Shown: positions 2,484 to 64,000 of the stretch, in pieces
Layout of the letters: each line of letters opens with the position of its first letter
Numbering within the stretch: the stretch's first letter is position 1
Assembly (NCBI GenBank): GCA_001574975.1
Contig: KQ965831.1
Coordinates: forward strand, 116,343 to 180,342
DNA length: 64,000 nucleotides
Direction of reading: 5' to 3'
Origin: Gonapodya prolifera JEL478
Taxonomy: Eukaryota > Monoblepharomycota > Monoblepharidomycetes > Monoblepharidales > Gonapodyaceae
Made by a program: the position numbers and the translations under genes
The notes under the pieces: model-generated
Told to the model about the DNA's origin: nothing
The model's input: only the letters and a program-made list of their open reading frames with translations
Databases searched by the model: none

Positions 2484-2670
2484 TTCAGATGCTGACGTCA
2501 GCATCGTGAGGTTTGGAACTGTATTGCGGTGGAGAAGAACACTTCAGAATTCTTTGGGGCAAGAACATTGTTGTATGGCTGCATCAACGTGTCGCGCAAG
2601 CTCGCCAAGCTCAAAGTTGGGATACAAATCTCCCCTGTTGCAAAAAGATACTGCAATACTGATGCCACAA
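2484..2670 (+). repeat. Diverged repeat block 1, copy b
   Basis: Partner of 1533-1740. It carries the second perfect TGCTGACGTCAGCA palindrome at 2490-2503. Confidence 0.5.
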
Positions 2671-2685
2671 AAACCTTGTTACTCA

Positions 2686-2870
2686 GATGTACATAGTAAG
2701 ATGTAATGTGCATAGAACTCACCTGCAGGAACGTGATGCCAAACTTAGGGACGTCCTGCAGGTGTGCACATCTAAACCCGCGGCCACAGTAGTGGCACAG
2801 CAGCTAATACCCAACACTCATACTACACTATATACTCCACGTTAGTGGATGTCAGTGTGACATTGCTGCT
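2686..2870 (+). repeat. ~185 bp dispersed repeat, copy 1 (near left end)
   Basis: Nearly identical to 63149-63330 in the same orientation, from CAGATGTACATAG to GGATGTCAGTGTGACATTG. Differences are a few substitutions and a 1-nt indel (GGGACGTCC against GGGCACGTCC). Read on the minus strand, this copy encodes a short cysteine/histidine stretch (CHYCGRGFRCAHLQDVPKFG) directly followed by a good GTGAGT splice donor, so the repeat may be a fragment of a coding exon of a mobile element. What element is not known. Confidence 0.75.
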
Positions 2871-3139
2871 GTGTTGTGCAAGATGATTCAATGGCCATTG
2901 TAACAGGACGTTTCACAAGAACAGAGCCACAAAATGCAATTTCAAAAGAGCATTCCAGATGCAACAACGCAAAGAGCAGCTATTAGCAAAGCTACCTCCC
3001 AGAGCTTCTATTATTTGAATTATTGGCGTGAGACCACAGTTCTTGAAAATCTCCACCTCTGTTCAAGGCACAGGCATCCTGACTTGAGCGATCATGAATC
3101 TGTCCTCTGTTCTCTGATTGTCATGGGAACCAGCCAACA

Positions 3140-5282
3140 GTGCCATCCTTATTCCACAAAACCCAAATATCACATCCTGTTCAAAAGGCATTGAAGAAGG
3201 CCATCACGTTCCCATTCAAACTCCAACTGTTTATCTCACTCCAATGCCCATTTGTCTTCTTGTATGGATCCCTGCATCTGGTATTGCAAATGTGGCAGAA
3301 GGTAGCCCTCATGTCTATGAAAGAGTTGGTTGTTTGAATGATTCGGGACACCGACAGCAAGATTCTTGCTGTCAATGTGACCCAACTGAAGCGCAAGGGG
3401 CACCTCAAAGGTACCTTAGAGGACTTTGAAACTTGGGTCATGAAAGAGGTTGATGTGGATGAGTGCGACATGTCAGTGCTCATTGACATTTTCCAGGAGT
3501 TGCGAAAGGGCATCATCAATATGTTTGATCAAGACACAGCAACTAAGAGTGTCGCAAAAGAGACCATTGAGCATCGGTGGGCTGCACTTCTTAGAGGCTT
3601 GTGGATCCAGGATATTCAAAGGCTTGCCTGTGTGCTTGCAAACATTGATATCTCTGTGGACGATTTGGACCAAGAATTCATCATTACAGAATCTTTCAGT
3701 CTGTCAATTGGCTGAGTTCTTTGCCAGGGCAGATACCTCACCCCGGTATCTGTTCAGAGATTGTTGCATGTGCTGTATACAAATCGTGGGAGCCTCACGT
3801 TTCCTCAGATGTGGGCTGAAATCGCTCTGGCAGAAGATTGGCTGGCTTTTGAACTTTGTGCAAAGTCTGGTTGTGATGCTGCTCAGAATGCTCCACAGGC
3901 ACAAGTGTCCAAGAACGTCAAGGAATTGTTTCTTCATTAGATCCAGTGCGCTCATGCCACAGACATGTTGACCATGCCTGAGAACCTTGCCATTGCACAG
4001 GATGATGCAAAAGAGTTTCTGGCAATGGAAGAGCTGGTGCTAGCCATGGGTGCACTGCGATTCACAACCCTGACTGGAGACATTATCTGGCGGATGAAGC
4101 TCACTGATGTCAATACAGTGGAAATCATCAGAGGTCTTCAGTGAGTTTATAGCAGCTTTGACCTCTCAAAACAGTTTCTTCTTGCTTGAGGTGTAAACGC
4201 TGCAAAGCTCCTATCCAAGCTGCACATAAAGATCCAACCATTGTGATAACCAAGATTTTCTTCACAGCAAGGAATCTTAACTCAACAAAAACTGGCGGCC
4301 ACAACTATATTTGTGCAATGTTGGCAGTCCTGCTTTATCTGAATGAACCATACACTGGATCAGTATCCACACCTACCTTACCTAGTTTTGCAGACCCAAT
4401 GGTAGACACAATCAAGCAGATCTTTACATCAATGTTCCCAATGCCAGGAACAGATTACAATGGATATTTGTAGGCTTTCAATGCTGATTTTCCTCCTTTG
4501 TTTTAACAATGGGCGTATATTCCTGACATGCAGCACTGACAAAAACCTTGCTTCTCAACAACAATTCTGCACTGGAGCAATCCTGGAACCTTTTGCAATG
4601 GTCTTGTGTTGATTTCATTGCTAGGCACAGGACTGGTTGCTTTACTTTTGAGCAAGGCAACTGAGTGACGTTCCCACATGGGTTGCCACCTCTTGGGGGA
4701 CCCGCTCAAAGTCGCTGAGAGAAATTTATCTCCTGTGTTCAAAATGATGTGTGATGGTGAAACACGCATTGGAGGGTGATTGTGCCCACAATGACAGATG
4801 ATGAGATGGATGGGATGTTGCTCAGTGTTTGGGAAACGCTGTGGATTGGGTTGCAAACTTAGGAGAATAATCTTGATTGTATTGAATTTGACGACAATGC
4901 TCCTGTTGCAGCCATGAGAAGCGTCAAAAGAACCATTGTTGCATCTCTTATTCAAGTCACTGGAGCTGTCAGATGGGTAGCTTGGTCGTGGTACGTTGAC
5001 AGCTCATGTGTTGCATTTCTTAACACTTTCTGACACACCCATCACTCATGCTGCACGCGCTTTGCTTTGACTCTGCATGATCTAACTTCGGGGCAACAGT
5101 CAGCTCTGTCGCCAATAATCCAATCCACCAATGACCCCGAACGATGGAACAACTTGGTTCGTGTACTCAGGCTTGCTGACCGCTCGAACGCAAGCATATG
5201 CGAGATCATGACTCAGATGAATGTGATGATGGGAGCTGCCAAGGTCGCGCAATGGATTCAGGCAATGATATCCTATCCATAA
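3140..5282 (+). pseudogene. Decayed F-box-like family member, copy A
   Basis: Co-linear at the protein level with copies B (11203-12911) and C (51813-53370). Order of conserved blocks: F-box-like start (FPFKLQLFISLQ, then GSLHLV), MKEL..MIRD, KRKGHLKGTLEDFETWV, RWAALL.GL....RLACVL, WAEIALAEDW (near 3810), LAIAQDDAKEFLAMEELV (near 3985), IIWRMKLTD, an ankyrin-like block, LNEPYTGSVSTPTLPSFADP, and a C-terminal PERWN...VAQWIQAMIS block ending at 5282. In-frame stops (for example TGA at 3335-3337, where copy B has a glutamine codon, and stops near 4141-4190) and several frame changes mean no continuous protein can be made without many unsupported introns. I judge it a pseudogene. The F-box assignment rests only on the short LP.ELQ..I-type motif; the rest matches nothing I recognise. 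Confidence 0.65.
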
Positions 5283-6323: not shown

Positions 6324-9125
6324 CTAGGGCGACATGACGGCCTCCTTCGAGAAAGGCCCGCCCGAGCCCAACCACCCTTCCAGCACCGACTTCACGTCCA
6401 GTCGCCCTCCCCCTCCCCCTCCTCCTCCTCCTCCTCCTGGTAAACCTCCCGACCCCGGCCCACCTCCACCAAACCCATTCGCGCTCCCGTTGGTCATTCC
6501 CATCCCCCCACTCCCCGTTCGTACCGATCTCGTCCCGCTCCCCGTTTCACTTCCGTAACTCCCATCACTCCGCCCATTCAGCGACCCGTACTGGCCCGAC
6601 CCCCCGTGGTACGCCATCACGGGGCTGTAACTTCCATTCATCGTCCCGTTCCCGTTCACGCCCGTATTCGGCGACCCTCCGCCCCCTGAGTTGGCGCCCG
6701 TGGGCCGGTACTGCAGATACGGCGACTCGGGCGGTGCGATCTGCGGCGGCTGTTGGGGTTGACCGGGGGACCGGGGCACGTACCCGCTCATGCTCGGTCG
6801 CCCGGGTCCGGCCTCGTACCCGGCTCCCCTGGCGTCGAACGATTGTCGCGCGTCCATGGACGGTCGCGCGTCGGTCGATCCGCGGGGGTCCATCGACAGT
6901 CGGGGGTCCATTGATAATCGCGGGTCCATCGACATCGACACCCTCTGGTCCATTGATCCCCTGGCATCCATCGACCCCCGCATGTCCATGCTGCCCCTAG
7001 CAGCCATGATCGTAATCGCGTCCGCGCTCGACGTCCTCGAAATAATACTCGGCGGGGACATCAGCGTCCCGCCCGATGACGGCGACGACGTGGAACGGTC
7101 CAGGAGGGTCGACCCCGACGAGGCGTACGTCAGCGTCGACATCGAGGTCAAGTCGGAAGCGGTGCGGACGAGGTTGTAGGGTGAATTTGAGGGGCCCCCG
7201 CGGGTTGGGGTGCCGTTTTGGGAGTTGCTGCGGAGTCTGGTAGGTGGAAGGACGGCAGGGGTGGGGTGGGCGTGAGTAAACGGAAGCAAACAAGGGGTTT
7301 AAGGCATCAACCTCGAACCAAGCCCCCACACACGGACTCACTTCAAAAACAACGCCTCCACCACCCTCATCTTCGGAGCAATCCCCTCCACATCCGCTCT
7401 CTGCAGGACCTCCAGCGGGAGCTCCGTGAACTGCACGCGGTCCCACAAATCCGTCCTCGCGGCCTCGTTGAGCCACGGCTTGGTCCGGTGCACGGCAATG
7501 TACCCGCGCACCAGTGTGTAGGTCTCGCTCGGCGTCCACAAGATCGCGCTCGGGACCGACCGCACACGACCGTCGGAGGAGATGGACACGGGGCTGGCGC
7601 TGCCGGCGCTCGAGGGGGGGTTGGTCGGTCGCGGAGAGGGGGCGAGCCCCGTGGCGTGGTCGGCGGCGCGGAGGAAGAATTCGATGGAGGATCCGGAGAG
7701 GGCGGACGGATCTTCCTTGAGCACCTCGGCGGCGGCGTCGAGGATGGCGTGATGCGGGGTTCCAGGCATGCGCCAGAGCCGTTCGAGGTCCTGGATCTCG
7801 GCGCTGGCGAACGACACGCGGGACCACAGCGCGGCGGCGGCGTTGGCGGATAGGGGCATGTTTGTGCGCTGCTTGACGTCAACAAAGTTGCGGACGAGGG
7901 CCAAATGGCTGGACCGCTCGACGTGGTCCAGGATGTGCGCCAGGGCCTCCGAGCTTGTGATGGCCAGCACGAGCTCGTCCGTGTCGGGGCTCCCGGCGAC
8001 CTCCACGAGCCGCTTTGTCGCCAACTGGGAGATCTCGGGCTCCTCCCACCTCCCCGCCTGAACGGCGATCGAGTGCAGTTCGTCCGGTGGCGTGTCGGCG
8101 TCAGGGTCCACGAGCGAGTCGCGCAGAACGAGGTCGTAGTGGGAGCGCAGTTCCGTGAGCTCGAACATGTGCGAGATCCGGTGGATGCCCAGGATGAGGT
8201 CCCATTGTCGTTCGGGGACGGGCATGGCACCAATGTCCATCGTTTCGTCGGAGTAGATGTACCAGAGGATGAACCCTAGGGCTTCGTGGAGGAGTTCGTG
8301 GTCGGGGAAGTGCGGGAGGTCGTACATGGGAATGCCCGTCGCGGAGAGTTCGGTAGGGCGGGTTTGGGTGAACAGGTCGTCGAAGAATTGGGAGCGTTGG
8401 GCGAGGACGACCCGGTGGGCCGGGAAGGTGCTCAGCTGGAGGATGGTGGGAGTGGAGTGTCGGGGGGGGAGAGGGGAGGAAGGGGTGGGGATGAGGCGGG
8501 GCGAGATGGGGGGAACGAGGAGCGGGTGGTGGGGGTTGGGGCGTTAAGGAGTGAGAGAGAGAGATGGGAGGGGGCGATGGGAGGACAGATGTCAAACGGA
8601 GGATGAGGGAATCCAGTGGGGTAGGAAGAGGAAAGGGGGAAAGGAGGAGAGGAGAAACATCAGCCATCGCGTCATCGGGACACAAACCACCCAAACACCG
8701 AAACACCGGCGAGAGGCGGATCCAGCCGCCTGTCCCTCCCCCTCTCCCATACGCACCTTTCCATCGCTCGTCCTGACTTTCAGCACTGCATCGACAAACT
8801 TTGTCGACTTCAAGAACGGAACAAACCCAATCGACGTCGCCGGCATCTGCTGGCCCCCGACCTGGCCCTGCGAGGCCGAGGGTGAGGGCACGATGTTGCT
8901 GCCTCTACTGGACCGCTTTCCGGGGTCGCGAGACTTTGCCCTCTTCTTCCCCGCGGGCGAACCGGCCCTCCCCCCAGTCCCACCCCCGTTGGCTCGGCCC
9001 CCGCCTCCGCCCCCACTGCCCGACTTGGCGGGCTTGGGCGACACGGACCGCGTGCGGTCGTCGGCGGGGGGAGGAGGTGGGCGCGGGCTCTTTGCGGAGC
9101 GGTGGCTGCCCCCAGAACTGTCCAT
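6324..9125 (-). CDS. BTB/POZ domain protein 1 (791 aa)
   Basis: Exons 9125-8757, 8435-7342 and 7236-6324; phases 0 and 2 join exactly. Start ATG at 9125. Residues 1-95 are Ser/Pro/Gly-rich and basic. The BTB fold begins near FVPFLKSTKFVDAVLKV, is split by intron 1, and resumes with LSTFPAHRVVLAQRSQFFDD, the usual substrate-adaptor BTB core. A helical region follows to about residue 487. The tail is low-complexity and contains a run of SMD-centred repeats (RGSMD, RLSMDP) at about 7000-6850 and a poly-Gly stretch near the C-terminus. BTB proteins usually dimerise and often serve as adaptors for cullin-3 ligases; there is no Kelch, BACK or zinc-finger domain to refine that. It is a paralogue of the gene at 13575-15663, sharing both intron positions and phases. 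Confidence 0.85.
6840..7000 (-). repeat. Coding minisatellite (SMD repeats)
   Basis: About ten degenerate units of GGGTCCATCGA-like DNA (15-24 bp period) encode repeating R-G/L-S-M-D-x peptides in the BTB protein tail. Unit variants include SMDMRG, SMDARG, SMDPRL and SFDARG. Confidence 0.7.
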
Positions 9126-11202: not shown

Positions 11203-12911
11203 TTATGGGCTGGATATCATTGCTTGGGTCCACTGAGCAACGTCGGCACCTGTCATGGTCACATTCATCCGAGCCATGACTTCGCACAAGTCTGCGTTTG
11301 AGTAGTTAAGAAGTCTGAGTGCATGGGCCAAGTCGTTCCATCGCTCAGGTTTGTTAGTGAAACACATTAATTGGGGCAGAGCTGCGGGTTGCAAGGCAAG
11401 GTGTGAAAATGTCAAACAGCGTAAAGGGAACCCAAGACCTAAAGTGTCAACGTACAACCACCAACTTCCTCGTTGGAAAGTCCCAATGACCTGAGAAGGG
11501 ACGCACATATGGTCCTCTTGTCCGTTCTGGGAGCCGCCACAGTCGCTCCATCTTCAAGTTGGATGTGGTCAAAATTGCGCCCCGACGTTGATATACCAAT
11601 CCACGTTGTTTCCCAATACTGAGCAACATCTTATTCATCTCGTCATCTGCCATCGCGAGCTTGACCGACCCTGATCTATCCTGTGTCACGCCGCTACGCA
11701 TCATTTTGAGCACAGCAGACACGTTTTTCTCAGCGGCCTTGAGCTGATCTGTCGTGACGCGTCCACCGGAGCGTCCGAATGGCTCAGTCAACAAGCTTAT
11801 AAGAAAGTAAAGGAGACCCGTGCCGAGAGATGTGATGGACACGAGACTTGCGCGCACAAATTGGAGAATTGATCGGGCGCAGAAGTGCTGGCGGGAAGAT
11901 AGATTGTGGTCGTGGCTGAGTAAAAAGTGACGTTGTAGATCAATGTTCCATTTATACCAAGGCGTACACTAAGAAGCAAACCAGACATCGAACAAAAACA
12001 CTTACAAACGTTTATTGGAGTTTGATCCTTGCTTGGAGAGCATGGCGGCCAAAATCTGCTTGATCGCGTTAACCGTCGGGTCCGTGAAAGTGGGTCGCTT
12101 TGGTGTTGACACCCTTCCAGTGTACGGCACATTCAGACAGAGCGGGACCGCAAGCATTACCCACAAAGCCTGCTGATCGCCAGTACTCGCTGAGGTACGG
12201 CTCTCTGCCGCGGCATAGATCCTGGTGATCACGAGGGTTGGATCCTGGTGAGCTTTGTAGTAGATTTCGACAGCATGGACTCCTCCCGCCCAAAGAAACT
12301 GCTTCGAAATGTACCAAGAATCATCGCTGTCCTCAAGGCATTGGACGATTTGCAACTTTTCTGTGTCAGTAAGCTTCATGCACCAAATTACTTCCCCCAG
12401 CGTGGAGTCGTAATGCAGTGTTTCCATTACTTGCACCAGCTCTTCCATCCCCAAAAACTGTTTTATATCGTCAAGCGCGATTGCAAGTTTTGCTGGGTTC
12501 GCCATTATCCCGGCCCCTGTCGAATACTTTGTCAATTAGTGCTGACGTGGCGCGGTTGTCCGAGTCTACTGCCCTCCTGAACCAGGTGCCAAAATCAGCC
12601 AAGGTGCTTGAGAGATGCCCTTCGCGCTTCAGCTGCGCCGCGACAGCCGCGAGGGTTTTGCTCTCTTCGTCCCGAATCATTTGACTTAACAGCTCTTTCA
12701 TCGACATCCGCCACGATCTTGATACCAGCCGCAAGGATCCTTTGAGGAAGACAGCGGGACATTGGAGGCAGATCAAGAGTTGGAGCTCCAAGGGGAGCGA
12801 GATGGGAGGCTTCGAGGTGTTCTGAGTTGGATGTGATAATCGGTTCGCGAAAGGGGGATGGAGCCTCGCTGGTTTCTGTAGCAATAAGGAAAAGGAAGAC
12901 ACACCCACCAT
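11203..12911 (-). pseudogene. Decayed F-box-like family member, copy B
   Basis: The ATG at 12911 opens a good N-terminus: LPLELQLLICLQ (F-box-like), GSLRLVSRSWR, MKELLSQMIRD, KREGHLSSTLADFGTWFRR, then ALID. At that point the middle part present in copies A and C (RWAALL through WAEIALAEDW) is missing, and the frame changes into KYSTGAGIMANPAKLAIALD. From there the frame is intact: MEELVQVMETL, VIWCMKLTD, an ankyrin-like segment (SKQFLWAGGVHAVEIYYKA), LNVPYTGRVSTP and FTDPTVNAIKQIL. After an intron, ITSLGTGLLYFLISLLTEPF carries a hydrophobic stretch, and a further frame change precedes the C-terminal PERWNDLAHALRLLNYS...VAQWTQAMISSP block. The internal deletion plus frame changes suggest a pseudogene, although spliced exons could rescue part of it. 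Confidence 0.6.
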
Positions 12912-13574
12912 CGATCAAAGTCGGGATAGTTCGTGCCCCGTATGGAAGTGGTGATTTTTGAAGAACTGTGGGTCTGTCCGTTACTCATGTTTATTAGTGG
13001 CTTCCGAGAGCTCTGCTGAGTGCTGATGCACAGACTGCACTTCAGCCAAGATATGAGCGTATTATTGAATCGGTCTTTGCTCATCTATTCGTCAGACACA
13101 CTTTGTGTTGAAGAACGTCCATGGTGCGCCAAGAAAAACCAGGCCCGAAATGTACTTCGCAGTAAGTTTCGACATGCGAGACAGGTAGCACCCTCCAAAT
13201 GTAGATATGAAGCTTCACGGCAATGTCAATGAAATTCTGCCTCGGCGTTGCACCATCCTGTGATCACCATCACGCAGCCCAGCACCTAGTTTCACACTTG
13301 TTTTCTCTCAGACCTCCGCTTCAACACCACAAATACGTGCATACCGGTTCTCTATTTTCCAAATATCAAAAAATCATTTACAAGGTTCACAAGTTGTTCC
13401 ACGACGTGAAGCGTTACATATAATTTCTCCCAAGCCAGTTCAGGTACAGATACTGTACAGTTCCGATCCCCTTCACACCACACTCCTCCAATCCTCTCTG
13501 ATCTGACCATTACACCCCACCTCGGCCCAAACTCTGAAGACAAAAAACGGAAACGTCCAGCGTCACCGTCCGGC

Positions 13575-15663
13575 TCAGTACCTCGACCGCCCATTCCCGC
13601 CCCTTGAACTGCCCCGATCCCTTTCCCTCTCTCGCTCGCTCGGCCGCTCAATTTCGTAACCCATCGCACCCTTACTGACCGTCCGCGCGGGGGGGAGGGG
13701 CATGTCTCCGTACCCGTAGTCCCGATCACGGTCGCGGTCGGTGCTCCCGTACCTCCCATCAGAAATCGTGCTCCCCGTAGAATACGTGTTGATCGAGTTG
13801 GCGGTGTTCGACCGGTTCAGCGCCGTGGAGGACGACGCGCCCGATGAGGCTGGACTGGGTGTGGCGGAGTTTGGACCAGGTAGGAGGGAGTTGGTGTAGT
13901 TGCGGTGCGCGGAGCTGGGGTTGCGGCGGACTCTGGTGGGAGGGGGAGGCGAGGACGGGGAGAGATGGTATGAGCACGGGATCGATCAAGAGAAAAGCAT
14001 GCATCCAAACAGTGCAAACGAGTACCGAGTGGTGCCCAGGCGGGCTGCCCCCTCTGCTTGCGCTACCAGTACTCACTTTCTGAAGAGAGCGCCGACAACC
14101 ATATCGTTCGGCGCTAAATTCGCCTCGTGAATGCGTCTCAGCTCCTCCACTGACATATCATCCAGCTTCGCCCTACTCCACAAGTGGAACCGCTCCTCGT
14201 CGTCCAAGTCGGGTCGCGCGGCACAGAACGCCGCAAGTAGGTTGCATGTTCGTGCGGGGGACCAGGGTGTGTACAAAATAGACCGGCCCGGGGCCGCCGA
14301 GCCGTCCGTGGGCTGTGAGGCCGTCGCGTGGTCCAACGCAGCAGCGAACAGGTCCTCCGAGACTCCGTCGAGGGATCGAGGGTCCTGAGCCAGGAGGCGC
14401 GTGGCAGCGTCGAGGACGAGGTGCACGGGGACGTCTTCCCCGGCAAAGGCGGATTCGACGTCGTCCAGGGTAAGCGTGTGGAAGGGCACGCGGGCCCACA
14501 GCGAGGTGAGCTGTTCGGGTGTCGGGGGCATCTTGGAGGCAGTCCGGACCGAGATCCATCGACGGAGGATGTGGAAGGTCATCGAGGGGTCCGTAGAGTT
14601 GATGACGGTCGCCATGATGTCGTAGCTGGACCGCGCGAGCGCAGCGTCCGAGGCTTCGGGGCGGCCGACGAGGGCGAGCAGGCGCTCAAGGGCGGCTTTC
14701 GAGACATCGCGCACGGCCCACTTCGTGGCCTCGGTGAAGATGGTGTACAGGTCCTGCGGGCTCGGCGTGGCCCGCGGGTCGTCCAGCACGGCGCCGATGA
14801 TGCGGGCGGTGAAGTCGTGCAGCTGGTTGAGCTCGAACATGTTGGACACCGCGTGCACACCAAGCACCAGGCCCCATTCGCAGTCGGGGATCGGAATGCG
14901 GTCGGGATCCGTCATGGAGTAGATGTACCATAAGTTGAAGCCGAGGGCTTCATGAAGAGCTTCGTGGGCGGGGAAGACGGGCATGTCGAACATGGGGACC
15001 CCGTTTTGGTTCGTTTCCGAGGGATCGATGTCCGAGAAGAGTGCATCGAAAAAGGGAGACCGTTGCGATAAGACAACGCGGTGCGCGGGGAATGTGGAAA
15101 TCTGCGGTGGAAAACCGGGAGTGTTGGGTTGGAGTGAGGTGACAAAGGAAGCCACAGCGGTGGGTTTTCGCAACCACCATCAGCCGACAAGGAGTTGCAA
15201 TCAAGGCAGCCAAACACTTCCCGGTACGGATTTTCTCCTTGTCTTTGAATACGAGAGAACCAATGGACGAGAGAACCAATGGGCTCGGAATCACCACCAA
15301 GCATCAAGTAACAATTCAACCTGCACTTTCCACCACCCTATCACCCGCGCCCACCCCCACGACCCCGCCACGCCAACGCACCTGCTTGTCGGTTGTTTGC
15401 ACTTTGAGTATACAATCGACGTACTTTGCGCTCTTCAAGAACCTGATAAACCCAGTGTGTGTCGGCTGCTCCTCCCCTTCATCGTTCCCACCCTTCTGCG
15501 CCCTGTGTCGCGAGGTTTTTGCCTTCCGTGCTGCTGCTGGCGGTGGAGCCCGCATCTGCCGATTTCGCCCACTCCCGTAGTCCCCCGGTGATTGGCCCGT
15601 GGGGGACGGCGAGGGCGAGCGAGACTTTCCCGTCCTGTTGTCGATGCTCTCGCGTCCGCGCAT
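13575..15663 (-). CDS. BTB/POZ domain protein 2 (554 aa)
   Basis: Exons 15663-15382, 15101-14077 and 13932-13575; phases 0 and 2, the same as in BTB gene 1. ATG at 15663 is the first in the frame. BTB core: FIRFLKSAKYVDCILKV before intron 1, then ISTFPAHRVVLSQRSPFFDA after it, followed by MFDMPVFPAHEALHEALGF, which aligns with MYDLPHFPDHELLHEALGF of the paralogue. The helical middle ends in MVVGALFRK just before intron 2, as in the paralogue (MRVVEALFLK). The tail is short and charged (ERDRDRDYGYGD, then an ERERERDR-type run) and lacks the SMD repeats. Probably an adaptor or scaffold protein; function beyond BTB dimerisation is unknown. The tandem arrangement suggests duplication, with copy B of the decayed family between the two. 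Confidence 0.85.
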
Positions 15664-51812: not shown

Positions 51813-53370
51813 TCAGTTCATTATATTAAGCACCAAAGCAACCAGCCCCATGCCCAATGAAGTGATCGAGACAAAGCGTTTGCGAACCAGTTCAATTATC
51901 GCTTGAGCGCAGAACCGGTGTCGGGAAGGTAGATTGTACCTGCTTCAACATAAGCAAATGAAAGTTGCCATCATCACCATTTAACATCATCAACGCTTTG
52001 TGTGGGAAACATACTACAGGTAATAATAGTTGCGGGTCCCTTCTTTCGGGAACAGGGTTGACTCTTGGGTCCGCGAAATTGGGAACAATGAAACTTGACG
52101 TCGTTCCGGTAAATGGCAGATCCAGGGAGAGGGGTATCGTTACCAGTCGCCAAATAGAGGAATGATACACAGTATCAATTGAATAACGGTTTTCGTCTCC
52201 GCCATCCAGAGCTAGAAAGATACTTCTGGTTACAACGACTGGATCCAGTCCCGCTTTCAGAAGGATTTTTACGCCATTCAACGCGCCCACGCGCAGAGAG
52301 TATTTTAAAACTCCCAATCATTCAAAATTTCCTCCCCAGACCTTATGAGGTCCACATTTTCTGCATCTGTAAGTTTCATGAGCCAGACGAGTTCTCCAAT
52401 CGCAACATCGTAATCTCTGTCCAGAGTGTCGCACAGTTCATGCAGGACCTGAGCCAGTTTTTCAGCCGACAAAAATGGTCTCACGTCGAGGAGTGTACTA
52501 GTAAGTTCATCTGCGTTCGATGTTATCCCGTTGCCTCTCGAATACTTGACCCAACGTTGAAAAACTTCCTTAATGTTCCCGAGGCAAGCTCTGGGCGAGG
52601 TCATCTGCAATTTTTGAGAACAGATCGGAAGCCTGCCAGTCTTCCGCAAGTGCAATTTCCGCCCATATCTCAGGAGGAGTGAGTCTGCCACAGCCATTCC
52701 AAAACTCGTGCAAAACTCGCCGCATTGGAATGGGGCTGAGGTATCCGCTCTGGCGAAGTACCCGACCGATTGAAATGTTGAATGAGAGATCCTCTTCGTC
52801 AAACTTTTCATCTACTCAGTTATCAACGTTCCCAAGTACACAAGCGAGCCTTCCGGGATCCTCGATCCTCAACCCACCGAGCAGTGCAGCCCACCGAGTT
52901 TCCATGGGCTCTTTCATCTTATTCCAAGTGCTTGTGATTCGGTAAACTTCAGCGACGACGTCCCGCTGCACCTCCAAGAACACATCAATGAGCACTGTCA
53001 TGTCGCACGTCTCCACATCAACCAACCTCCTAAACCAAGACCCGAAGTCGCCCGATGCGCCTTTCAGATGTCCTTCACGTCTCCGCTGGGTCACGATGGC
53101 CGCGAGCGTTTTGTATTCGTTCTCCCGAGCCATTCGAGTAAACTGGTCTTTCATCGATGCAAGTACAGCTGTCCGCCATGCCCTGGACACCAGTCGCAGG
53201 GATCCATAAAGCTGGCCGATGGGGATATGGAGGCAGATGAGTTTTTGGAGTTCGAACGGGAGAGGGGTTGGCTGTTTCGAGTTGGAGGTGACAATCGGGG
53301 TTCGTGAAATGTGGACGGCGACGCAGGTTGGTTTCCGTAGCAACCAGCAAAGGGAGGACAGATTCACCAT
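51813..53370 (-). pseudogene. Decayed F-box-like family member, copy C (C-terminally truncated)
   Basis: ATG at 53370 opens the most complete N-terminus of the family: LPFELQKLICLH, GSLRLVSRAWR, MKDQFTRMAREN, RREGHLKGASGDFGSWFRRL, MTVLIDVFLEV and RWAALLGGLRIEDPGRLACV with LGNVDN and a stop. The downstream frame continues YLSPIPMRRVLHEF, WAEIALAEDW, then after a frame change KYSRGNGITSNADELTS, LSAEKLAQVLHEL, LVWLMKLTD, an ankyrin-like ALNGVKILLKAGLDP, LDLPFTGTTSS and FADPRVN. A final exon reads FVSITSLGMGLVALVLNIMN and stops at 51813. The C-terminal PERWN block of copies A and B is absent. Function unknown; likely a relic, though the first exon is clean. Confidence 0.6.
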
Positions 53371-53738
53371 CGCTCAAGTCGGAGATGTCGGTGTCTTGTA
53401 CAGCAGTGGTGAATTTTCAAGAACTGTGGTCTGTGAACCTCAGTTTGATGTAGTCATATTTTGAATTCATGCATTCAGAAAGAACAAGGCACGCAAATTC
53501 GGCTTGTACGTAGCCACACCTCTACAGAGACAGCAATCTTGTCGCTCCATCTCTCCTTGTCCCGACCGATTCCAGTCTACAACTTTTTCTCCTTCTTGCA
53601 TTGAATTCTGACATTCAGTGATCCTTTTGAAAGTTCTTCTTATTTATCATAATTTTCTATCTACCGACCGTATCTCAAGCCATTACAATTAAGAGGTATA
53701 AAACCAAAAACAGGAATATAATGTACGCGAGAAGGACA

Positions 53739-61583: not shown

Positions 61584-62911
61584 TAGGGTTACGAGGGAGC
61601 GAGTAACTCGCTTGAAATGGTCCAACTTGCAACTTGCTCCCTCGGTTATTGGTGAACTCCCGAACTCACTCCGTCAACAATTCTCAAACTCCGAACTCAC
61701 TCCCTCAGATGGGAGTCCACTCTAAACTCCACGAGTTGACTCGGTTGCAACTCGCAGGTTAAATAGCAGGCTAAATTAGAAAAAAAAATTATTTCGGAGT
61801 TACGATATTACAAACGCAAAGTCCCAACTTAATAAATTATTGCTTCATACACATTAATTCAGGATATTCTTGCTTCCACTTCTTTAATGACATTAAGTTC
61901 CTAATCATTACAGGTCCAAGACGGGTCCTCTGGTCCCAAATAACATTCCTCCCTGCAGAAAACATCTGCTCCAATTCCGCACTGGTCCCTTGAATCCCCA
62001 GGTAGTCTTGTGCCATCCACTGAAGTCCTGGAAGATCTCCCCTTCCCTTCCAGTACTCCAGCAAATCTGTCCTCCATGGCCTCCTCGTCTCCATCAAGTA
62101 CTGGTCCAGTTCCCCTTGCATATCTGCATCCTCATCAAAAATACTCATTGCTCCTGCATCCTCCATGACTGGAGTCTGACACCCAAGGCTACCACCAGTT
62201 GCGACACTTGCATACCTGTTTTCTACTGTTGCTCAGATGGTGGCCTCAGCCTTGTTCATGTACTTTGTTTTCCATCCTTGCTCCTGCATCCATGATAGCT
62301 TGTATTCTGGGTGCAGCACTGTTCTAAAATTAGTCAAGGTGTCACCAATGTAAAACCAAAACAAGGTAACTTACCTAATGCAATCCAATAGAGCATTGTG
62401 CTATCTGTCTTTGCATAGTACTTCCAAAGCACTTCCATGATGGCTTCCCAAATCATTAAAAGGACTGGCAGCAACCCAACATCCACGTCCTGAAGCTTGT
62501 ACATTACAATGTTGAAAAGGGGGACAACCATCACAAGGGTTGCGCATGCTGCACTCTCCACCAAGGAGAGTGCTTGTGCTGTGGCTGTGTGAAATAAACA
62601 GGAGAGGGTGAGGTGAGACCAGATTGCAATTCATGTTTGCACACACCACAAGGAGACGTCAAACCTTCTCCAGATAGTTCCAGTCTTTGTCCATCAGTTT
62701 CTACCTGCTAATGTTATGAGTGAGTGAGTCAAAACTCACTCACTCACTCACTCGCAACTTGCGAGTGCGAGTACAAGTTGACAAAGGTGTGAGCAAGACA
62801 AGTTGCAAGTTGGATATATAGTTGAGTGAGCAAGTTGCGAGTTGTATATTTTAGTGAGTGAGCAAGTAACAAGTTTATATAATATAACTCACTCAACTCG
62901 CTCAGAACCCA
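61584..62911 (-). mobile_element. Internally deleted hAT-superfamily transposon
   Basis: Bounded by imperfect inverted ends: TAGGGTTACGAGGGAGCGAG at the left, and at the right the reverse complement of a TGGGTTCTGAGCGAGTTGAG-type end. Subterminal regions (61590-61765 and 62715-62905) are packed with ACTCACTC, GAGTTGC and CAACTTGC motifs, as in Ac-like elements. The interior encodes only the C-terminal part of a transposase. I did not find a matching 8-bp target duplication (left flank TTCTTCAC), so the right boundary is uncertain. Confidence 0.75.
61837..62600 (-). pseudogene. hAT transposase, C-terminal part
   Basis: Exon ~62590-62369 (LSLVESAACATLVMVVPLFN, AIMEVLWKYYAKTD, MLYWIAL) is followed by a GTAAGT...AG intron and an exon starting VLHPEYKLSWMQEQGW. 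An in-frame TGA near 62260 interrupts the frame, which then reads on to the hAT dimerisation region: LLEYWKGRGDLPGLQWMAQD, SAELEQMFSAGRNVIWDQRT, then MIRNLMSLKKW, with a stop at 61837. This last block is the diagnostic hATC domain. The N-terminal BED finger and most of the DDE core are missing, so the protein is not functional. Confidence 0.85.
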
Positions 62912-62929
62912 AAACATCCTGAGTCGGAA

Positions 62930-63104
62930 ATGAGCGCATCGGTCACCGACGTTGCTAGCAAATGGATGACTGCCAGACGTTTTGTTTCAGCTAAGCGGGA
63001 GTTGTCATGGGTGTTCCGGGATGGCCATTTTGAGAAACAGAAGAATGGATCACGAAAGAGGGCCATCTGCCTCCACAAAGTACAGAATTGCTACACAACC
63101 TAGG
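62930..63104 (+). pseudogene. BED-finger-like fragment
   Basis: The plus strand from ATG 62931 reads MSASVTDVASKWMTARRFVS, then ELSWVFRDGHFEKQKNGSRK and RAICLHKVQN. The S-W-V-F...HF...R-A-I-C-L spacing resembles the front half of a BED zinc finger of hAT transposases, but the second CxxC/H ligands are not present. It is opposite in strand to the adjacent transposase. Could be a piece of a second element. Weak. Confidence 0.3.
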
Positions 63105-63148
63105 TGAGCTGCACGAGCTTGTAATCTGCAGGAACGTGTATATATGAT

Positions 63149-63330
63149 CAGATGTACATAGCAAGACATAATGTGCATAGAACTCACTGGCAGGAACGTG
63201 ATGCCAAACTTAGGGCACGTCCTGCAGGTGTGCACATCTAAACCCGCGGCCACAGTAGTGGCACAGCAGCTAATACCCAACACTCATACTACACTATAAA
63301 CTCCATGTTAGTGGATGTCAGTGTGACATT
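63149..63330 (+). repeat. ~185 bp dispersed repeat, copy 2 (near right end)
   Basis: Partner of 2686-2870, same orientation, ~60 kb away. It has a 1-nt insertion that breaks the minus-strand cysteine/histidine frame seen in copy 1. Confidence 0.75.
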
Positions 63331-63854
63331 GTGCTCCCCTCCTTTACCCTCCCCTTCCTTCTTACTCCCATCAGTCTTTAGCCAGACAGAAAGTATTACG
63401 GTGTCCCAATCTAGAAACAGCTGCAAGTGCCTGGCAGAGTTCTTGGTCCTAGCTTTCAAGTTCCTAGACCTGAGAGTGCAAAGTGGTACCATCTCCGCAA
63501 GGTTACTAATACAGTCTGAAGATCCATTTGAACATTGCAATAGCATCATGAAAAGTTTAAAGTTGCTGTTGGAAAAGTAAGAAGAAAGGATAGGTTGGGG
63601 TGCAGATTTATGACTGTGCAGCCAAAGAGGGCTGAAATGTCATCTACAGCTGCATTTGTCAAGCGATTCTGAGTGATAAATATAGCTTGAGTATGTGAAT
63701 TGCTGGTTGATTCCATTTGGAAAGATCTTGTGACAGCAGAGGCTGCTAATAAATGAGCTGATATGAGTTGCACACAAAGTCGTGAATAACTCAATTAAGA
63801 GCAGTCCAATCCAAACAAAACTTTTAAGTCACAATATTGAATTAATTTAGCGTC
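63331..63854. other. Repeat-like DNA without a recognised gene
   Basis: Short open frames on the minus strand (for example 63549-63289) have no recognisable domain. AT-rich and adjacent to repeats. Confidence 0.35.
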
Positions 63855-64000
63855 GATAAGGGTTAGGGTTAGGGTGCAATAGGACGCTAGGTGAGGGTGG
63901 GGGATTTTTGGGAATGAGAACTTCATGCCCAGCTCCAAGTCTGGTACCAACAGATAGCCCTGATATAGGGTTAGGGTGCAATAGGACGCTGGGTGAGGGT
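63855..64000 (+). repeat. TTAGGG-type telomere-like repeat unit, two copies
   Basis: GGGTTAGGGTTAGGG at 63860-63874 is followed by TGCAATAGGACGCTAGG and TGAGGGT. A second copy of AGGGTTAGGGTGCAATAGG begins at 63967 and runs to the window end, 102 bp after the equivalent position (63865) in the first. It may be the start of a subtelomeric tandem array continuing beyond the window. Confidence 0.65.

Follow-up and report, generated by a model that had tools for sequence, protein, structure and literature searches.

Decayed copies of a candidate F-box-like multicopy gene family in Gonapodya prolifera, one of them lying in CpG-depleted DNA

Three related loci in a 64,000-nucleotide stretch of the Gonapodya prolifera JEL478 genome (contig KQ965831.1, here C101, positions 116,343 to 180,342; hereafter the window), which we call copies A, B and C, are together with a fourth copy, D, best read as decayed members of an F-box-like multicopy family that evolves by birth and death, copy A having been eroded within CpG-depleted DNA of the transposon type; we assign this reading a probability of about 0.72. 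The four copies are duplicates made at the DNA level, which diverged under purifying selection and lost their reading frames separately. In other respects the gene family shows nothing beyond ordinary birth and death.

Copies A (3031-5282, plus strand), B (11203-12977, minus strand) and C (51813-53434, minus strand) are homologous at the DNA level and share one protein layout, with matches far above chance. Within the window blastn aligned A with C at 66% identity over 830 bp (E 6e-52), A with B at 63% over 1364 bp (3e-31) and again at 66% over 463 bp (1e-23), and B with C at 69% over 423 bp (E 9e-36). This homology and the common layout bear out the chain of motifs that the original prediction had traced through the three copies, and the shared DNA starts upstream of the bounds drawn earlier, at 3031 in A, 12977 in B and 53434 in C. 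A start codon opening the common N-terminus MVxxSS... can be read in B (12911) and in C (53370). At the opposite end the C-terminal PERWN block of A occupies 5127-5282 (plus strand), and homology between A, B and D continues beyond the stop codon into the 3' flank. The three copies exist as described, but they belong to a local cluster of four: a whole-genome protein search placed the broken copy D on this contig some 13 kb ahead of the window (C101:~101750-103722, minus strand). Copy D lacks the N-terminus common to B and C and is open over 342 aa, after which come a frameshift at ~102793 and, near 102676, a deletion of ~74 nt relative to A and B.

The proposal that each copy is damaged differently, by stops in A, a deletion in B and a lost C-terminus in C, proved right, with further lesions in addition. 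In the conserved frame copy A carries five stops (TGA 3335, TGA 3713, TAG 3938, TGA 4142 and TGA 4187), and from about 4200 the following block reads in a different frame. Copy B has an internal deletion of ~455 nt, the equivalent of A ~3489-3943, a part that A, C and D retain; it is also missing 12 nt in or near the F-box segment and a single nucleotide near 11615, which shifts the frame. Copy C has a TGA at 52818 and a frameshift near 52600, and its homology ends at ~51820, the C-terminus being gone. Homology to coding relatives is thus combined with disrupted frames, as in pseudogenes. The same lesions bear on the possibility, recognized at the outset, that A, B and C are ordinary intact genes in which hidden introns remove the stops and frame changes. 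These genes are indeed spliced: there is one genuine conserved intron (in B at 11910-12004, minus strand, bounds approximate), whose donor in B is GTAAGT and whose acceptor CAG occupies a common position in A, B and D. Nevertheless, the frames stay broken around it, given that the stops of A at 3335 and 3713 are flanked on both sides, in ungapped alignment, by residues conserved in C or D, that the frameshifts in B, C and D amount to 1-2 nt and fall at aligned residues, and that B and C lack whole segments of the gene; we therefore regard intact genes as extremely improbable. The position of the intron, kept in A, B and D, together with the common 3' flank indicates that the copies are DNA-based duplicates; an origin as retrocopies (processed pseudogenes), which entails intron loss, was considered and rejected on the retained position.

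Estimates of dN/dS point to a long period of constraint. In block 1, the longest, the values are 0.31 for A-B, 0.33 for A-C, 0.36 for A-D, 0.45 for B-C, 0.40 for B-D and 0.43 for C-D; in all six pairs the bootstrap interval stays below 1 and dS is 0.80-1.23. Shorter blocks give noisy ratios. A pair of relatives on contig C53 yields 0.51 (0.39-0.66) in the long block. Ratios of 0.31-0.45 at dS of ~0.8-1.2 imply that the cluster copies are old and diverged mostly as constrained working genes, the losses having come later. One might instead suppose that some of the broken copies still produce shorter working proteins, for instance from the 342 aa that stay open in D or from the F-box segment of B or C, which would serve as truncated adaptors, or else regulatory RNAs. 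Both the open stretch of D and the ratios below 1 in all pairs would suit such products; however, the ratios also take in the time that preceded the breaks and are thus no sign of present constraint, the shared N-terminus and flank are gone from D, and A and C carry stops inside the stretch equivalent to the open part of D. We consider surviving short products improbable and retain the view of the cluster as a set of decayed genes.

To place the cluster in its wider family we searched the genome (G000, 47.6 Mb) with single protein queries; the locus counts are lower bounds. The family comprises at least about 16 loci genome-wide, about 12 of them beyond A-D. Related open frames survive, as had been predicted: one of 651 aa at C53:163473-165425, and one of 763 aa of which the related part lies at C19:370935-369649. 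The expectation of a sizeable family fared less well, as relatives do exist but the number of loci found is modest, not large. Broken relatives lie at C19:368436-367253 (C19-E), C19:421665-422837 (C19:421.7k), C19:324719 (C19:324k), C53:165715-167411, C53:109530-110158 (a fragment) and C87:70462-69559, and among more distant loci those on C106 and C75 are open while those on C154 and at C19:222k are broken. The genes of this genome are intron-poor, and two BTB/POZ-domain genes (PF00651) stand beside A and B at 7341-8543 (7.5e-7) and 14076-15179 (1.9e-5), both on the minus strand. The genome also has 72 Fungal_trans matches and an axonemal radial-spoke gene, which together point to a flagellated fungus; the radial-spoke gene and the scarcity of introns speak against a basidiomycete.

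The homology of the two open frames to the cluster is firm in the N-terminal half and weak at the C-terminus. With copy B alone as the query, the genome search found matches to the C-terminal block in the C101 cluster only. Frame-by-frame reading recovered this block in C19:324k and in C19-E, the latter with 27% identity to D (42.7 bits); the co-linear C-terminal match in the open C19 frame, at 6.9 bits, is too weak to count. The C53 relatives form a tandem, one open (the 651-aa frame) and one frameshifted, with tails 83% identical over 386 bp. As these tails are so similar despite being in different frames, the open copy may end in sequence that did not originally code for protein.

What the intact proteins might be is indicated chiefly by their N-terminal segment. 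In copy A this segment (ITFPFKLQ...LYGSLHLVLQMWQKVAL; 3200-3313, plus strand) was delimited by its reading frame and alignment, and the pattern LPxEL...I...LY..LRLVSR.WR recurs at the expected place near the N-terminus in independent members. The Pfam F-box model PF00646 gives 18.3 bits with a composite of copy C, 16.8 with D and 16.2 with the C106 relative, and PF12937 gives 18.2 bits with the C106 protein against a cut-off of 24.3; the gathering cut-off is reached by no family member scanned (best 18.3 vs 20.5 bits for PF00646). One or other of these models matches C, D and the C106 relative at E 0.002-0.01, and PF00646 matches at E<=1 in four of the six aligned members. The original prediction of an F-box-like start is therefore upheld as to the motif and not as to the scores, all of which lie under the Pfam cut-offs, and the segment is consistent with a sub-threshold F-box. 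The genome as a whole has at least 144 PF00646 matches at E<=0.001, with 150 of 439 candidates scored.

The ankyrin-like unit proposed earlier finds no support: Pfam scans of blocks and members yielded no ankyrin match at E<=1. Sequence searches of the region after the F-box segment returned no Pfam family and no PDB chain, so that the earlier statement that the proteins match no described family holds beyond the weak F-box, and the papers found include none on this gene family. An AlphaFold2 model of copy C, built with the A and B rows, consists of low-confidence helices with a mean pLDDT of 41.7, and at a pLDDT of ~42 we make no claim of a fold. That the N-terminal segment is some other short helical motif, in a family with a different job, would accord with the sub-threshold scores and with the lack of a confident fold in this model. 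Against this, members that share only ~25-35% identity with each other have these F-box models as their best Pfam match at one and the same position, and the motif pattern is retained; we hence view a different motif as unlikely and continue to treat the segment as F-box-like.

The copies also differ in the manner of their decay: A decayed largely by CpG transition, whereas the damage in B, C and D consists of indels and stops. At 77 sites two or more of the other copies have a CpG; A has lost 67 of these CpGs, retaining 10, and now shows TpG or CpA at 51 of the sites, whereas retention is 49% in B, 31% in C and 47% in D. Two of the stops of A lie opposite CpG-containing codons, the TGA at 3335-3337 (plus strand) opposite CGA of copy C and that at 3713-3715 (plus strand) opposite CGG of copies C and D. 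The observed/expected CpG ratio (o/e) is ~1 across the window except in two deserts, one at 2601-5000 (unstranded; o/e 0.12-0.44), which holds most of copy A, and the other at 61801-64000; outside both, the lowest 2-kb interval has o/e 0.64. The depletion in A is thus CpG-specific and matched by a gain of TpG and CpA. Its desert begins near a dispersed repeat of ~180 bp adjoining the gene (2683-2862, unstranded), of which at least 40 genome copies were scored, mostly 96-98% identical. The repeat recurs with 95% identity at 63148-63335, in the second desert, and further copies at C19:424k and C87:67k lie next to CpG-poor paralogues. A degraded hAT transposase retaining the C-terminal dimerisation region (Dimer_Tnp_hAT, PF05699, E 5e-16) lies at ~61850-62090 (minus strand) in the second desert, and a very strong desert (C101:98500-100500, o/e 0.03-0.07) lies ~1-3 kb beyond the 3' end of D.

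Two further dead paralogues, C19:421.7k (o/e 0.22) and C87 (0.08), are in CpG deserts that reach past the gene and carry the same ~180-bp repeat; B, C, D, C19-E, C19:324k and the C53 pair are CpG-normal. Since the affected genes are three paralogues from a single duplicated family, one could suspect a RIP-like process, triggered by homology and aimed at duplicated genes. However, the deserts extend beyond the gene copies and contain the dispersed repeat, the first part of C19:421.7k is itself CpG-normal, and B, C, D, C19-E and the C53 pair escaped although they are equally or more similar duplicates, all of which renders a RIP-like process quite improbable. The CpG loss better fits passive decay of putatively methylated DNA of the transposon type than mutation aimed at duplicates. 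A DNMT1-RFD domain is encoded at C14:450057, ~2 kb before C5-methylase matches at C14:452210-453975.

Taking passive decay as the preferred reading, we propose the following course of events. The intact proteins would be F-box-type adaptors, whose N-terminal segment would bind Skp1 of an SCF ubiquitin ligase and whose mostly helical remainder would select the substrate. Duplicates would arise and vanish by birth and death. Copies A, C19:421.7k and C87 may have come to sit in cytosine-methylated chromatin of the transposon type, where deamination of CpG would erode them, while B, C and D would gather ordinary indels and stops instead. A bolder version, which we offer as speculation and think unlikely as it stands, is that these SCF-type adaptors form an undescribed family that turns over fast among zoosporic fungi and whose substrate-binding half is helical and new, with transposon-type CpG methylation capturing and mutating redundant copies again and again and so helping to set which duplicates survive. 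In any event, a single genome here displays one family at many stages of decay, namely open, frameshifted, truncated and CpG-eroded, and the comparison of CpG-eroded with CpG-normal dead copies makes it testable how, in an early-diverging fungus, methylation of the transposon type comes to affect ordinary duplicated genes.

In terms of known systems, the family resembles the F-box proteins (PF00646/PF12937), the substrate adaptors of SCF, in having the N-terminal LPxEL...LRLVSR.WR signature followed by a long variable C-terminal part; it differs from them in scoring under both curated cut-offs and in a C-terminal part that matches no Pfam repeat or PDB entry. With regard to the CpG loss, 5mC has been reported as confined to transposons in the chytrid Spizellomyces punctatus (PMC12695648), a C-to-T bias in transposable elements is widespread across fungi (PMC4352252), and in early-diverging fungi 6mA is said to have largely taken the place of 5mC (PMC13297926). 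Unlike the Spizellomyces and other fungal transposon cases, the putatively methylated island described here also contains a decayed copy of a host gene. In common with them (PMC12695648, PMC4352252), it shows CpG-specific C-to-T loss in islands with a dispersed repeat and a hAT relic, in a genome that has a DNMT1-RFD gene.
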